The notes beneath the pieces were generated by a model. That model was not told the origin of the DNA, did not search any database, and saw nothing but the letters and a program-made list of their open reading frames with translations. A stretch of DNA of 64,000 bases from Streptomyces gelaticus. Its GTDB lineage: Bacteria; Actinomycetota; Actinomycetes; Streptomycetales; Streptomycetaceae. The translations under genes were made by a program, and so were the position numbers. Shown here piece after piece: positions 43,759 through 49,490 of this stretch. Numbering within the stretch: position 1 is the first letter of the stretch; every line of letters begins with the position of its first letter. The DNA is taken from assembly GCF_014649535.1 (NCBI RefSeq), contig NZ_BMTF01000020.1, positions 62,001 to 126,000 of the forward strand, given 5' to 3'.

Positions 43759-45008
43759 GGGCACGGACCGCGATCGTCTGCTCGGTCGCGGACCAGGGCG
43801 TGGCCGCGCTCACCAACATCCTGGTGCTGGTGACGGCCGCCAGGCTCTCCACGGTGGCCGGCTTCGCCCGTTTCTCCGCGGTCTACCTCGTCTTCACCGT
43901 GCTGCTGGGCGTGTCCGGCGCCTACACCGGGCAGCCGCTCGTGCTGCGGCGCGGCGGGAGCGAGGAGGTACGCGGCGCCTGCCGGTCGGCGGTCGCCTTC
44001 ACCCTGCTCGCGGCGACGGTGCTCGGAGCCCTGCTGGCCGGAGTCTGTCTCATGCTGCCGGGAGGTACCGCGCAGGCCCTGATGGCGCTGGGACTCGTCC
44101 TTCCGGTCGTCCTGGGCCAGGACACCATGCGGTACGCCTTCTCCACACTGCACCTGCCACACCTGGCGCTGGCAGGCGACACGCTGCGACTGGTCTGCGT
44201 GCTGGGCGCGCTGGCCGCGCAGCCGCACGGTGCCCCGGCCGCCCGGCTGGTCACCGTCTGGGGGCTGTCCGCACTGCCGGCCCTGCTGCTCTCGGCCGCC
44301 CTGCTGCACCGACGGGCCGCCGGTACGCCCCTGAGACCGAAGGAGTTGCTGCGGCGAGGCCATCTGGGGCGGCGCTTCGTGGTGGAGTTCGCGGTGGGCA
44401 ATGCCACCGGCCAGCTCTCCGTGCTCGGACTCGGCGCGGTCGCGGGCCCCTTGGTGGTCGGCGCCCTGCGCGGCGCGACCACCCTCTTCGGACCGCTGAA
44501 CGTGCTGTTCACCTCGGCCACCGGCTTCGGCCCGCCTCTGCTGGGAAGACTCGACGGCGAACGGCGCAGGGTACGGACCGCCGCGACGCTCGCCGCCGTC
44601 CTGGCAGCCACCGCGGCCGCCTGGGCCACCGTACTGGCCCTGCTGCCCGGCCCGGTCGGACGCCATCTGCTCGGCGACACCTGGCCCACGGCGGCCGCCC
44701 TGCTCCCGGCGACCGGCAGTCAGTACGCGGCGATGGCCGTCGGCACCTGCGGACTGCTGGCCCTGCGCATCCTCGACCCGCGGACCACCCTCGGCATCCA
44801 GGTGGTCTTCTCGTTCGCAGCCGTCGCCTTCCTGACCGGCGGCTACCTGCTCGGAGGGATTCCGGGCGCCGCCTGGGGCCTGTGCCTGGGATCCGTGTGC
44901 AAGGCGGTGGCCACCTGGACCAGGGTGGCCGGACTGTTGCGCCGCCCCGCCGCCGAACGTCCGGCGTTCAGCGCGGACGCCGCCCGGCCTGGACCCGGAA
45001 GCTTGTGA
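43755..45008 (+). CDS. polysaccharide flippase (Wzx-like)
   Basis: Integral membrane protein, 417 aa, about 12 to 14 hydrophobic segments throughout (IVCSVADQGVAALTNILVLV at the start, then repeated Leu/Val/Ala stretches), matching polysaccharide-type transporters of the MVF superfamily. The N-terminal VADQGVAALTNILV pattern is typical. It would flip the lipid-linked repeat unit across the cytoplasmic membrane. Third gene of a translationally coupled run with the WcaI-like transferase and Wzz-like protein. Its last 41 bases overlap the 3' end of the convergent polymerase gene. Confidence 0.85.
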   Translation: MRARTAIVCSVADQGVAALTNILVLVTAARLSTVAGFARFSAVYLVFTVLLGVSGAYTGQPLVLRRGGSEEVRGACRSAVAFTLLAATVLGALLAGVCLMLPGGTAQALMALGLVLPVVLGQDTMRYAFSTLHLPHLALAGDTLRLVCVLGALAAQPHGAPAARLVTVWGLSALPALLLSAALLHRRAAGTPLRPKELLRRGHLGRRFVVEFAVGNATGQLSVLGLGAVAGPLVVGALRGATTLFGPLNVLFTSATGFGPPLLGRLDGERRRVRTAATLAAVLAATAAAWATVLALLPGPVGRHLLGDTWPTAAALLPATGSQYAAMAVGTCGLLALRILDPRTTLGIQVVFSFAAVAFLTGGYLLGGIPGAAWGLCLGSVCKAVATWTRVAGLLRRPAAERPAFSADAARPGPGSL

Positions 45009-46437
45009 CCAGCAGCAGGCAGAGCGCCGCGACGGCCGGCTTCCCCGCCGCCTGCAAAAGCGGCCCACGAAGCAGAATGAAGGTGTACCCGGCGATCAGC
45101 GGCACGGTGACGGCCAGCACACTGCCGGGGCCCGGCCCCTCCCGCGAGACGGCCCGTGCGTACCGCCGGTCGGTACGGGCAGCCACGTACCCGATCAGCG
45201 CGAAGGCACCGGCCATGCCCGGCGCGCCGAAGTCCACCCAGAGCTCCGTCCACAACGGCGCCGACAGGTTGGTCATGCTCATCCCCATCCACTGGCCGAC
45301 GCGCACCCCGGTGTCCTCCGGCTTGCCGTTCCACACCGCCCGGGGCACGAAGAAGAGTGCGGAGCCCGCCAGTTGACGGCCGTAGGTGTGACCGCGGGTG
45401 TCGACCCAGGTGATGGTGTTGGCGAACATCACCGTCTGGTCGTAGTCCTTGGTGGCCAGCGGCTCGAACACCGAGGAGGACTCCACCGGCCGGTACCCGG
45501 AGCTGTCGTAGCGGAACCGGTCCGCGTACGGGAACAGCACCAGCGCCCCGACCACCCCCGCGGCCAGTACCGAGCGGTACATCGCCGCGCTGCTCGGGAA
45601 CGCGGTGAACAGCAGCGAGACCAGTACCGTCAGGAACCAGTAACGGGCATTGGAGACGGGGTTGTTGACGATCGCGTTGAGGCCGGCCAGCCCGAGCCAG
45701 ACCAGCACCGTCGACGGGGAACGCCGGGCCCTGCGCGAGGTCACGAGACGGCGGGTGTACAGGAGTAGCGCGAGCAGCGCGGGCACCGTCCCGAAGCCCT
45801 TGAGGAAGGCCGAACCCACCTGGGACCCGCCCGAACCCACCCCGCTGGCCGCGACCGAGGCGCTGATCTCCTGACGGCTGGTGAAGAAGACGGCGGGCCC
45901 CCCGAGCTTCAGGATGTAGTAGCCGCTCGCCGCGAAGGCCAGCAGCACCAGCAGCCTGAGCCGTACCCGGTGGGCCACGGCCGGACCGGCCCCGGAGCGC
46001 ACGGCGGTCCGCCGCCGCAGCGGCCGCCGGGACGCCAGCAGAGCCCCCAGGTCGAACGCGGCACAGCCCACCAGGATCAGCACGACGGCCGTCACCAGAT
46101 CCGACCGCGGCCCGACCAGCGGCGTGGGTGTCTGCCCGATCACGGCCTGGGCGAACGGCGCCACTCCCATCGCGATGTACACGAACATCCAGAAGACGCC
46201 CTGGAGCAGCCGCCGTCGGGTGGAGAGGATCACGGTCGCCAGCCGGGTCCCCGCATAACAGGTCAGCACCAGCTGGAGCCAGTGGGCGGTGTCCCGGACG
46301 CCGGTCCCCGGCTGCGCGGCGATCACCGCGGGCAGGAAGCAGACCAGGGCGAGGATCAGGGGTACGGCCAGGGCGCGCGAGAGCATCGCCCACGACATGG
46401 GCTTCGCCGGCGGCGCCGCCTCGCGCACGGACGTCAT
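44968..46437 (-). CDS. O-antigen polymerase/Wzy-like membrane protein
   Basis: Membrane protein of 489 aa with about 11 to 12 hydrophobic segments (VPLILALVCFLPAVIAA, AVVLILVGCAAFDLGALL, LLVLLAFAASGYYILKL, WFLTVLVSLLFTAF and others). A large loop near residues 300-400 (YADRFRYDSSGYRP, TWVDTRGHTYGRQLAGS, APLWTELWVDFG) is placed as the periplasmic catalytic loop of Wzy/O-antigen ligase-type proteins. It probably polymerises flipped repeat units. GGGGAG is 5 bases before the ATG at 46437. Overlaps the convergent flippase gene by 41 bases. Its promoter side was invaded by the IS982 element. Confidence 0.85.
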   Translation of the reverse strand: MTSVREAAPPAKPMSWAMLSRALAVPLILALVCFLPAVIAAQPGTGVRDTAHWLQLVLTCYAGTRLATVILSTRRRLLQGVFWMFVYIAMGVAPFAQAVIGQTPTPLVGPRSDLVTAVVLILVGCAAFDLGALLASRRPLRRRTAVRSGAGPAVAHRVRLRLLVLLAFAASGYYILKLGGPAVFFTSRQEISASVAASGVGSGGSQVGSAFLKGFGTVPALLALLLYTRRLVTSRRARRSPSTVLVWLGLAGLNAIVNNPVSNARYWFLTVLVSLLFTAFPSSAAMYRSVLAAGVVGALVLFPYADRFRYDSSGYRPVESSSVFEPLATKDYDQTVMFANTITWVDTRGHTYGRQLAGSALFFVPRAVWNGKPEDTGVRVGQWMGMSMTNLSAPLWTELWVDFGAPGMAGAFALIGYVAARTDRRYARAVSREGPGPGSVLAVTVPLIAGYTFILLRGPLLQAAGKPAVAALCLLLVTSFRVQAGRRPR

Positions 46438-46504
46438 GTGCTCCCCGTTCCCGTGGACCGGTGAACACTCTAACGAATCAGCCCACTTGGGGGGTTTGGA
46501 TGAC

Positions 46505-46525
46505 TAGATGATCGATTCCAAGGAT
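46505..46525 (+). repeat. outer left IS982-type inverted repeat
   Basis: TAGATGATCGATTCCAAGG and two further bases. It matches the reverse complement of the right end in 18 of the first 19 positions, so it is the best partner of that end. Confidence 0.8.
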
Positions 46526-46618
46526 CGCCTGCGCGTACGAGCGCTCGTCGTTGCCGCAACGCAGCACCAGGCCGCGGCCGGCGAAGCAATTTGGCGTTAC
46601 AGGCCTCCGGGTGGCCGG

Positions 46619-47269
46619 TCAAGATGCGTCGCTGGAGATGCCTGGCCGCAGGATCGACCGTCCGGCCGCCAACGCCGCACGGATCGCCGCGAAGTTGGCG
46701 CCGTCGTGGTCGAGAAGGTCGGTGGCCAAGACGTCTTCGAGCTCCAGCTCGTCGTCGATATCGCTCGCGAAGTTCTGGCGGTTCGGATGACCCATGACGA
46801 ACGCCTGGGGATCTTCGGCGAACACCATGTTGAAGCCGGAGGTGTTGATGACTATGCGGGCGGTGGTGCGTCCGCAGACGACCAGGATGCCGTAGTTGTC
46901 GTGACCAAAGACGCCGTTCGACGCGGTCAGGTCACCGCGCACCACCACGTTCGGCTCTCCGGCGACGAAGATATTACGTGCCCGCAGGTCTCCAGTCACC
47001 AGCAGAAAGCAGCCGCCACCATAGGACGACCACGACAGGTCCCCACCGACGGTCAGGTCCCCCGCCACGATCACGTTGCAGGGATTCCAGTCACCGGGTG
47101 GTTGTGAGACAAGGTCGCCGTCAACGGTCAGACCGGTAGCGTACAGGCGAATCTCCTGCTCGCGAGCGAAATCCCGGTACGGATACCCGACGTCGGCCGA
47201 TACCGCGAACATCCTTTCGGCCTGTTCAGCGTCGAGGATTCGATGTTGTGGCAACAGACTCGCGGACAT
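46619..47269 (-). CDS. bactofilin/polymer-forming-like passenger protein, function unknown
   Basis: Protein of 216 aa with short beta repeats typical of right-handed beta-helix or bactofilin-type folds: LTVDGDLVSQ, NVIVAGDLTVGGDLSW, LLVTGDLRARNIFVAG, VVVRGDLTASNGVFG, ILVVCGRTTARIVINTSG. An acidic, helical tail (DIDDELELEDVLATDLLDHDG) follows. No signal peptide or membrane helix. Base composition is visibly less GC-rich than flanking Streptomyces genes. The ATG at 47269 is 11 bases from the inner IS end (a TTG at 47278 is in frame) with no good ribosome site, so the insertion may have cut its own promoter. It lies between two IS ends and could move with them. Confidence 0.65.
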   Translation of the reverse strand: MSASLLPQHRILDAEQAERMFAVSADVGYPYRDFAREQEIRLYATGLTVDGDLVSQPPGDWNPCNVIVAGDLTVGGDLSWSSYGGGCFLLVTGDLRARNIFVAGEPNVVVRGDLTASNGVFGHDNYGILVVCGRTTARIVINTSGFNMVFAEDPQAFVMGHPNRQNFASDIDDELELEDVLATDLLDHDGANFAAIRAALAAGRSILRPGISSDAS

Positions 47270-47280
47270 GCTGCCCAATG

Positions 47281-47301
47281 TAGGTGATCAATCCCGAGGG
47301 G
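47281..47301 (+). repeat. inner left IS982-type inverted repeat
   Basis: TAGGTGATCAATCCCGAGGG plus G. It matches the right end's reverse complement at 17 of 21 positions and starts 41 bases before the transposase GTG. Confidence 0.7.
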
Positions 47302-47341
47302 CGCCTGCGGAGACGAGAACGAGGGCGTCCAAAATTGCTTT

Positions 47342-48241
47342 GTGACGAACAACCTGGACACCCTCGCGACGGCACTCTATGCGACGGCCGACGACCTGCT
47401 GAAGGAGCATCCGGACTTGGCACCGTGGCGACCACCGGTCGGCATCGCACCGCGCCTGAGCGATGCCGAACTGGTCACCCTCGCCACGATGCAGGCCATA
47501 ATCGGCTACACCTCCGAGGCCAAATGGCTCCGCCATGCCCGTGCCCACCTGCGCCACCTCTTCCCCTACCTGCCCCAGCAGCCCGGCTACAACAAGCGGC
47601 TGCGCAAGGCCGCCGGTCTGATGCGAAGCGTCAACCGGATCCTGGCCACCACCACCTCGGTGTGGAGGGACGACGTATGGGTCGTGGACTCCACCCCGGT
47701 GGAATGCGGCCGCTCCCGCGAGGACCTGGCAGGTTGGGCCGAATACGGCTACTGCGCCAGCCACAGCCGCTTCTTCTGGGGCCTGCGCCTGCACCTGGTC
47801 TGCACCCTTCAGGGCCTGCCCATCGCCTTCGCCCTGACCGGGGCCAAGGCCGACGAACGCGAGACCCTCCTTGACCTCCTGGCCGCCGAATGCGAGCTTC
47901 TGCGAGAGCGCCCCCGACAGACTCTCATCAGCGACAAGAACTACTTCGGCCGTGGTTTCGAACGCGAACTGTCCGAGCATGGAGTCCAGTTGCTGCGGCC
48001 TGCCCGTAAAGGTGAACGGGAACGGCCTGGCGCAGCCTTGTTCAAGCCGCTGCGACAGGTCATCGAATCGATCAACGAGACCTTCAAGGGACAGCTTGAC
48101 CTCGAACAGCACCGAGGGCGCACACCCGGAGGTGTCATAGCCCGCGTCATGCAACGCATCCTCGCGCTGACCGCCGCGATCTGGCACAACGACGCCACCG
48201 GACAAACCGTCCTACGCTCACTGATCGCCTACGATCACTGA
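47342..48241 (+). CDS. IS982-family transposase
   Basis: DDE transposase of 299 aa, near full length for IS982. The family pattern LSDAELVTLATMQAIIGY near residue 40 and FPYLPQQPGYNKRLRKA near 75 is clear. Catalytic acids are probably Asp in WVVDSTPVECG near 118, Asp in LISDKNYFGRGF near 195 and Glu in QVIESINETFK near 240. From memory of related Streptomyces copies, a few residues may be missing after the first motif (GRSREDLAGW); alignment is needed. GTG start at 47342; the stop abuts the right inverted repeat. The reading frame is open, so the element may still be active. Confidence 0.88.
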   Translation: MTNNLDTLATALYATADDLLKEHPDLAPWRPPVGIAPRLSDAELVTLATMQAIIGYTSEAKWLRHARAHLRHLFPYLPQQPGYNKRLRKAAGLMRSVNRILATTTSVWRDDVWVVDSTPVECGRSREDLAGWAEYGYCASHSRFFWGLRLHLVCTLQGLPIAFALTGAKADERETLLDLLAAECELLRERPRQTLISDKNYFGRGFERELSEHGVQLLRPARKGERERPGAALFKPLRQVIESINETFKGQLDLEQHRGRTPGGVIARVMQRILALTAAIWHNDATGQTVLRSLIAYDH

Positions 48242-48262
48242 CCCCTTGGAATAGATCATCTA
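48242..48262 (-). repeat. right IS982-type inverted repeat
   Basis: Reverse complement reads TAGATGATCTATTCCAAGGG plus G. It begins directly after the transposase stop codon and pairs with both left ends. Confidence 0.82.
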
Positions 48263-48299
48263 GTCTGCACAAGGCCGGCCGAGTTCGAGGGGAACCCTG

Positions 48300-49490
48300 G
48301 TGAAGATCCTGCACATCGTCACACTGCACACCCCGGACCATGCGTTCGGCGGCCCCACCAGGGTGGCGCTCAATCTGTCGAAGATCCAGCGGGCCGCCGG
48401 CGACGACGCCAGGATCATGGCGCTCGGCGACGGCTTCGAGGGCCTCCTCCCGCGCGAGGTGGAGGGAGTGCCGGCGCATCTCTTCCGGGCACGCCATCTC
48501 CTCCCCGCGTTCGAGGTCAGCGGAATCACCTCCGGCGCGCTCCTGCACGCCGCGCGCCGCATGATGCGCGGCGCCGACATCGTCCACATCCACCTGATGC
48601 GCGACCTGGTGACACTCCCCGCCGCGCTGCTCGCACTGGCCTGCGGCACACCTCTGGTCGTCCAGACCCACGGCATGGTGGACCCCACCGAGAACCGGGT
48701 CGCCCGGCTGACCGACCTGCTGGGGGTACGCAAGGTGCTGCGCGGGGCCGACGCCGTACTGCACCTCACCGAGGCCGAGCGCCTCGATGTGAACGCGGTC
48801 GCCGCGCCGGTCCCGCTGACCCGCACCGTACGGCTCGTCAACGGCGTACGCCCGCAGGAGTTCAAGCCCGCCCGGTCCCCGGGGCGGCCGCCGACGGTCC
48901 TCTTCCTCGCCCGGATCCAGGAGCGCAAGCGCCCGCAGGACTTCGTCGCCGCGATGCCGACGGTCCTGGCCGAGCACCCGGACGCCCGCTTCGTGCTGGC
49001 CGGCCCCGACACCGGTGCCCTGCCCGCGACGCTCGAACTCGCCCGCGAGCTGGGGGTGACGGGCTCGCTCGACCATGTCGGCCCGCTCGGGCACGAAGAG
49101 GTCCTGGCGGCGGGGCGGCAGGCCGATGTGTACGTACTGCCGTCGATCGAGGAGCCCCTGGGCGTGTCCGTCCTCGAAGCGATGTCGGTCGGCACCCCCG
49201 TGGTCATCACCCGTACCTGCGGACTCGGCCCCGATGTGGCGCGCGCGGGCGCGGGCCGGGTGATCGACAGCCGCGTCGGTGAGGACGGGAAGAACGCGCA
49301 CAAGGTCGCCACGGCAGTTCTGGAACTTCTCGAACCGGACGCCAACTCCAGGGCAGGCAGGGCTGCTTGGGGCCTGGTCAATGATGACTTCACCATCGAG
49401 GCCGTGACCGCGGCCCTCCGGCGGACCTACGAGGACGTGGTCCGCCGCAGAGCCCGCCGGTTCACCTCGTCCTGCCCTCACGGGACTTGA
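48300..49490 (+). CDS. family 4 glycosyltransferase
   Basis: GT-B glycosyltransferase, 396 aa from GTG 48300 with GAGGGGA upstream. N-terminal MKILHIVTLHTPDHAFGGPTRVALNL-type start (Val-coded here), HIHLMRDLVTLPAALLALAC near 98, TVLFLARIQERKRPQDFVAAM near 200 and the donor-binding EEPLGVSVLEAMSVGTPVV near 284 identify GT4. It adds one sugar of the exopolysaccharide repeat. Its 3' end overlaps the convergent GT2 gene by 29 bases. The IS982 element ends 36 bases upstream of its start, so its native promoter may have been displaced. Confidence 0.88.
   Translation: MKILHIVTLHTPDHAFGGPTRVALNLSKIQRAAGDDARIMALGDGFEGLLPREVEGVPAHLFRARHLLPAFEVSGITSGALLHAARRMMRGADIVHIHLMRDLVTLPAALLALACGTPLVVQTHGMVDPTENRVARLTDLLGVRKVLRGADAVLHLTEAERLDVNAVAAPVPLTRTVRLVNGVRPQEFKPARSPGRPPTVLFLARIQERKRPQDFVAAMPTVLAEHPDARFVLAGPDTGALPATLELARELGVTGSLDHVGPLGHEEVLAAGRQADVYVLPSIEEPLGVSVLEAMSVGTPVVITRTCGLGPDVARAGAGRVIDSRVGEDGKNAHKVATAVLELLEPDANSRAGRAAWGLVNDDFTIEAVTAALRRTYEDVVRRRARRFTSSCPHGT

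Follow-up and report, generated by a model that had tools for sequence, protein, structure and literature searches.

Insertion sequences (IS) are usually treated as carriers of a transposase gene only. Transporter IS (tIS) additionally carry passenger genes unrelated to transposition, according to the accessible text of three papers (PMC3129680, PMC10132070, PMC9330008), and in transposable modules and ISEcp1-like capture, as outlined in the accessible part of one of them, a host gene is mobilized by one IS lying next to it (PMC9330008). For the IS982 family, the accessible text of a review lists 69 members of 845-1282 bp, whose ends begin with AC in 57 and with CC in 5 of the 69 members, and whose direct repeats, when present, have 2-10 bp (PMC7335449). 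The terms 'passenger', 'accessory gene' and 'MITE' have no occurrence in that text, and no IS982 passenger gene is described in the accessible portions of PMC3129680, PMC10132070, PMC9330008, PMC6542083, PMC11092175, PMC9208149 and PMC7335449, which is no proof of absence from print.

Here, we describe a locus of Streptomyces gelaticus located in a 64,000-nucleotide stretch of contig NZ_BMTF01000020.1 (positions 62,001 to 126,000), the whole of which is referred to as the window. With high probability, it is best explained as an insertion sequence of the IS982 family that carries a passenger ('transporter IS'); its outer left and right ends would be the boundaries that moved, its inner left end would be a relic of the transposase's own IS, and its passenger arm appears to have been recombined. 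Like a tIS, it has a 219-aa passenger unrelated to transposition between its terminal ends, and the passenger seems to travel with the IS as one unit, judging from empty sites and homology boundaries. Mobile insertion cassettes (MIC) also have IS-type ends around a passenger gene, whereas the unit in the window has its own transposase gene. A possible MIC is present in a related genome (L125:2076-3184), where a SAM-dependent methyltransferase gene lies between two inverted 116-bp IS982-type repeats or miniature elements with no transposase match. Passenger-carrying IS are already known; the locus differs from the tIS described, and is new as far as our searches show, in the IS982 family, in the range of cargo (17 left-arm classes in one genus, with cargo in the left or the right arm), in the relic inner end, and in the joining of a passenger arm to the transposase of another element.

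Layout of the element

The element sits between two divergent genes (44968-46437, minus strand, and 48300-49490, plus strand), which we take to encode a polysaccharide polymerase and a glycosyltransferase. From 46504 to 48263 it comprises a CTAG (46504-46507, no strand), the outer left end (46508-46544, plus strand), a passenger gene of 219 aa without internal stop (46619-47278, minus strand), the inner left end (47280-47341, plus strand), a 299-aa IS982-family transposase gene (47342-48241, plus strand), the right inverted repeat (48244-48259, minus strand) and a second CTAG (48260-48263, no strand). Both CTAG are regarded as putative target-site copies from the sequence and the empty sites. 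The mobile unit between them has 1,752 bp (46508-48259), which is beyond the listed 845-1282 bp of IS982 members, whereas the 976-bp core from the inner left to the right end would fit; this range is not a family criterion. The transposase matches the profile NF033520 (transpos_IS982) with 160.4 bits against a cutoff of 130, and the core of approximately 1 kb and the ends of approximately 20 bp are likewise those of the family.

The outer left end reads ATGATCGATTCCAAGG from 46508, and the inner left end GTGATCAATCCCGAGGGG from 47284, preceded by GTAG (at 47280) in place of CTAG. The right end, read reversed, ends at 48259 and forms with the outer left end an inverted repeat of 22 nt with 95% identity (46502-46523 and 48244-48265). 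Compared with an 18-base motif from the right end, the outer left end has 3 mismatches (with a one-base gap) and the inner left end 4. For the outer end, the best match, over approximately 38 bp, is the left end of L094-type elements, which form a different IS982 subfamily, and the inner end aligns with the left ends of the minimal IS L064 and L065 at positions 2-62 of 62. The original prediction of an IS982 element with three ends, a complete gene between the two left ends, CTAG flanking the outer unit and an outer left end matching the right end better than the inner one is in agreement with these data, although the positions it gave for the ends were off by a few bases.

The location of the ends on CTAG is a difference from the described IS982 elements. 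The ends begin with ATGATC after CTAG, or with CTAGATG if CTAG counts as part of the end. As a direct repeat, CTAG is found on both sides of the unit, with a single CTAG in five of seven empty sites; it is palindromic, so that a target duplication is indistinguishable from a part of the end. The full unit is present as a single copy in its own 7.75-Mb genome, and the search for further genomic copies proposed with the original prediction yielded, besides this copy, three weaker pieces (66-85% identical) at one other place (C13). No structured RNA reached the gathering score in 46400-48400.

Boundaries of the moved unit

The right flank of the element was searched in 100 related genomes, with a match at E ≤ 0.001 in 74 and 20 loci listed including the window. 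Of the 19 other loci, the best 7 (L101-L107, with 81-87% identity) were aligned with the two flanks joined together, and the remaining 12 were left out. At the corresponding chromosomal site, passenger, transposase and ends are missing from all seven aligned relatives, and the junction reads CTAG in five and CTAT or CTAC in two. Thus, 1,752 bp plus one CTAG were gained together; the passenger came with the transposase on the outer end, and the boundary of the inserted DNA is the outer left end and not the inner one. The original prediction had proposed an IS982 element with a captured passenger, and had named passenger and outer end as normal chromosomal sequence in relatives lacking the transposase as the contrary case. 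Its proposal is borne out: the seven relatives lack both as well as the transposase, and empty sites and homology boundaries point to the outer left and right ends as those that moved.

Parts of the element are found in other contexts. Streptomyces atratus JCM 3386 (L022) matches the window at 46505-47322 with 95.6% identity, S. atratus OK807 (L023) at 46503-47587 with 95.0%, and the linear plasmids of strains NBC_01590, NBC_00046 and NBC_00012 at 46504-48080 with 90%. The three plasmids represent one locus (99.6-99.9% identical including flanks) and the two S. atratus copies have a common left flank; therefore, there are three contexts including the window rather than six. In each of them, homology begins no more than 1-2 bases from the outer CTAG. 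A full-length transposase match was found in none of the five other copies of the passenger. Next to the S. atratus copies lies a stretch that we read as the 3' end of a further transposase gene, and the truncated element of L022 is followed by a near copy of this left flank (CTAAATCACCGGTATTG). Empty-site searches were also made for L062, where homology ends short of the junction, L148, where the matches are copies of a repeated sequence, and L070, where the left flank is unconserved.

Cargo classes of Streptomyces IS982 elements

A search of 392 Streptomyces genomes with the transposase gave a match at E ≤ 1e-40 in 95 of them, and 40 regions, mainly from the top of the match list, were fetched with up to 5 kb upstream. 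A left end was located 0.58-2.9 kb upstream of the transposase in 19 regions and approximately 60 bp upstream or closer, as in a plain IS, in 14; none was found within up to 5 kb upstream in the other 7. Together with further loci, the left arms carry 17 mutually unrelated cargo classes (A-Q), and the 17 cargo segments without ends showed no mutual blastn match at E ≤ 1e-3. Nine classes (A-I) were found at two or more loci: the window protein (A), a 129-159-aa protein with no Pfam hit (B), an alpha/beta hydrolase (C), a DNA polymerase III beta clamp (D; TIGR00663, 213 bits), a quinone reductase with a TetR protein (E), a mycothiol S-transferase (F), a SnoaL/DUF4440 protein (G), a lipoprotein-like protein with no Pfam hit (H), and an AlkD-like protein with a 97-aa protein and an ABATE/CGNR protein (I). 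The other classes are an Imm5-like protein (J, L088), an M15 D-Ala-D-Ala dipeptidase family protein (K), an MBL-fold hydrolase with an AraC protein (L), a pentapeptide repeat protein (M), a GNAT protein on pCLA1 of S. clavuligerus ATCC 27064 (N, L140), NUDIX (O) and MOSC (P) proteins, and a 320-aa protein with no Pfam hit (Q). The right end is absent from the stretch fetched for class J (L088) and for the class I copy L077, and present in the class I copy L143. Outside the 17 classes are L145, L121, L146, L061 and L076, of which L145 (S. akebiae) has a GNAT gene next to a truncated transposase, as well as two elements with right-side cargo, L072 (a polyketide-cyclase-like SRPBCC protein) and L151.

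The class D passenger is a complete DnaN paralogue in two genomes (L066:3747-4901 and L147:1539-2693). Some transposases have been reported to bind the beta clamp, and this cargo may therefore be non-neutral.

Pairs of elements of the same class (L062/L087, L062/L098, L068/L071 and L063/L081) are homologous from the outer left to the right CTAG and for at most 7 bases beyond. L150 matches both L069 and L070 with 98.6% identity and exactly at the outer left and right ends. L069 and L070 are identical elements of one genome with 78 bp in common beyond the outer left end, and were rejected as a clean element pair for that reason; since L150 lacks these 78 bp, they lie outside the unit. Repeated plain elements without cargo were also found (L082/L083 in one genome, G296, and L084/L085 in another, G055), and the minimal IS from inner left to right end exists alone in L057, L064 and L065.

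Independently of the transposase, we surveyed ends with the pattern CTAGATGATCNATTCCAAGGG (at most one mismatch), the results of which apply to this end type only, since IS982 subfamilies with other ends fall outside. The pattern is present in 30 of 121 genomes of the genus and in 44 of 245 of the order (the samples overlap), while a control with the reversed pattern had no match in any row shown for the 121 or the 245 genomes, and hence the ends are not due to chance. There are 119 distinct end sites in 69 genomes, 69 of them without a partner within 3.5 kb, and 24 loci with convergent ends less than 3.5 kb apart. Only three of these 24 end pairs are a plain IS of 999 bp (G055 twice, G448), and 21 contain extra DNA. 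The original prediction had considered IS982 elements with a passenger to be unusual; in the end pairs of this survey, elements with extra genes outnumber the plain IS. Seventeen of the 21 cargo loci have 1.36-2.88 kb, including L146 without a transposase match and L121 with only a transposase fragment. The other four have right-side cargo (G064), a mostly deleted transposase (G065, G013) or a cassette without transposase (G033:C120). The transposase is broken or missing in several of the 21 loci (L120, L121, L124, L127, L146 and L153), and many related elements are decayed.

Mosaic structure and state of the transposase

In 80-bp steps, the identity of the window to L054 and L023 is 90-99% until approximately 47463 and at most 90% thereafter. 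From 47464 onward, its identity to L062, a class B element, is 92-99%, and that to L090 and L025 is 95-100%; these two have the class B sequence in front of their transposase and no outer end in the stretch fetched. The element is thus a mosaic with a breakpoint at approximately 47464, combining the passenger arm of class A with a transposase of the class B type, in line with the transposase tree. Both the tree and the identity steps show closely related transposases carrying different cargo.

The transposase of the window lacks five residues (TVKRS) next to the STP..ECG motif owing to an in-frame deletion. The same or a similar form of TVKRS is present in the 59 other matched transposase rows, some of which repeat fetches of one place and from which transposases not fitting the motif were left out. 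Given this loss, the copy in the window may be inactive and perhaps immobile now.

Origin of the cargo arms and alternative explanations

Outer ends resemble IS982 left ends clearly more than right ends in the window as well as in L054 and L077 (36-39 bp). The opposite holds for L068, L071, L073 and L088 (27-33 bp), and in the other classes the left- and right-end scores are close. All these matches to known IS ends stop after 20-39 bp. The match of the inner end lacks the first 13 bp in class B and the first 25-26 bp in class C. Longer pieces of a second IS are retained in L061 (88 bp of a second right end) and in L076 (right end plus an inverted piece of the transposase 3' part, approximately 178 bp). 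In L076 (2114-5932, transposase on the plus strand), a gene that we take to have a NACHT-like NTPase motif lies between the inverted transposase 3' fragment and a full IS982, and this locus is a possible intermediate between a composite transposon and a passenger IS. Class B relatives were found in 83 of 199 genomes. Among 12 such loci examined, seven have an IS982-type end and five have none; four of these five extend at least 9 bp into the remnant of the inner end and resemble decayed elements. In L187 (G179), the class B relative stops at the inner-end remnant, and its match spans the DNA between the outer-end and inner-end remnants. L187 thus marks the captured segment and is compatible both with a donor and with later loss.

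These observations are consistent with the following scenario. A second IS982 end, from an eroded neighbouring copy or a solitary end, would have come to lie beyond a host gene, and the transposase would have paired it with its right end. The inner left end would later have decayed, fixing the larger unit as the mobile one. We infer this origin by a second end and subsequent inner-end decay as the most likely one; none of the loci examined had two intact flanking copies. The mosaic indicates that recombination within the transposase gene later linked the passenger arm to a transposase from an element carrying a different passenger. As the empty sites show, the whole 1.75-kb unit, passenger included, was inserted into CTAG between the divergent genes, with CTAG left on each side. 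The same design, with other and unrelated cargoes, occurs in many Streptomyces genomes.

The normal IS982 size of the segment from the inner left to the right end, and the presence of such minimal elements alone elsewhere, would also fit a minimal 0.98-kb IS982 inserted beside a passenger and outer end that are ordinary chromosome. Against it, neither passenger nor outer end is present at this site in the seven aligned relatives, homology in the other contexts begins at the outer end, and the CTAG of the outer ends is replaced by GTAG at the inner end; the empty sites lead us to reject this explanation, and we give it a negligible probability. Almost as improbable is a classical composite transposon, in which two IS982 copies would still flank and mobilize the gene. 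Such a transposon also has a gene between two IS ends, and the longer second ends of L076 and L061 agree with it, but the window has approximately 40 bp of a second IS, with no second transposase and thus without two complete copies. A composite transposon is plausible as the ancestor and not as the present state.

A one-sided capture resembling that of ISEcp1, in which a solitary or look-alike end beyond the gene is used sporadically and no second IS copy is needed, deserves more weight, although we still consider it unlikely. It draws on the abundance of solitary IS982-type ends (69 of 119 unpaired), on the short outer-end matches, and on transposable modules described for other IS in the accessible text of PMC9330008. 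However, the outer ends, which carry CTAG, are almost perfect copies of IS982 ends and not loose look-alikes, with matches over 25-39 bp in several cases, and units with the same cargo recur with fixed boundaries, which indicates that the large unit is now the one that transposes. The passenger could also be a selected, co-evolved part of the element that aids transposition or the host rather than arbitrary cargo. The recurrence of nine classes at two or more loci and the nature of some cargo, DNA-related (DnaN in two genomes, AlkD-like) or immunity-like (Imm5), are in its favor, whereas different classes have no related cargo in common, closely similar transposases occur with different cargo, and the window passenger and four other cargo proteins have no PADLOC match. 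We find this improbable, and less credible than one-sided capture. Our preferred reading of the locus is the passenger-carrying IS982 with moved outer ends.

Passenger protein

Searches of the passenger against Pfam and NCBIfam at E ≤ 1 returned only PF20597 and TIGR04215, both under cutoff. A structure model (mean pLDDT 80.3, pTM 0.84, based on 9 sequences) shows a run of short strands with helices at the termini, and its comparison with PDB folds gave no significant match (best E 0.29). Thus, of the beta-helix or bactofilin-like passenger suggested by the original prediction, the strand-rich, beta-helix-like character is reproduced by the model, and bactofilin was rejected, there being no bactofilin match in Pfam or NCBIfam at E ≤ 1 and no significant PDB fold match.

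Passenger homologues with approximately 49-54% identity have long open frames at four of five loci (L006-L010). In L058, the passenger corresponds to the N-terminal part of a leucine-rich-repeat (LRR) protein of 780 aa, encoded next to an ankyrin-repeat protein. The passenger is probably a stand-alone binding or scaffold domain, which is a guess. A distant homologue (35% identity) is located on another contig of the same genome (L016, G000:C16:84216-84719). A defence gene was also considered and rejected, with no PADLOC match for the passenger of the window or for the cargo of L062, L088, L123 or L077; the weak PADLOC matches are those of the LRR homologue in L058 and of the proteins encoded beside it.

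Implications

Since related Streptomyces elements carry other single genes in the same way, the arrangement looks more like a gene-shuttling design than a one-off accident. Tentatively, and as a possibility that we rate below even, Streptomyces IS982 elements might form a general system of single-gene capture and exchange, in which an IS end of approximately 20-40 bp would mark nearly any gene as a mobile arm, and recombination within the 5' part of the transposase gene would pass such arms from one transposase to another. The outcome would be a common pool of single-gene modules, similar to that of integrons but lacking an integrase. With second-end remnants of approximately 178 bp, 88 bp and 20-40 bp and a gene copy without IS ends at hand, the question of how an IS becomes a transposon becomes directly testable. 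If an IS lineage often carries single unrelated genes, it would provide a concrete vehicle for some of the 'isolated' accessory genes of antibiotic producers, a vehicle that would be overlooked by an annotation ending at a plain IS.
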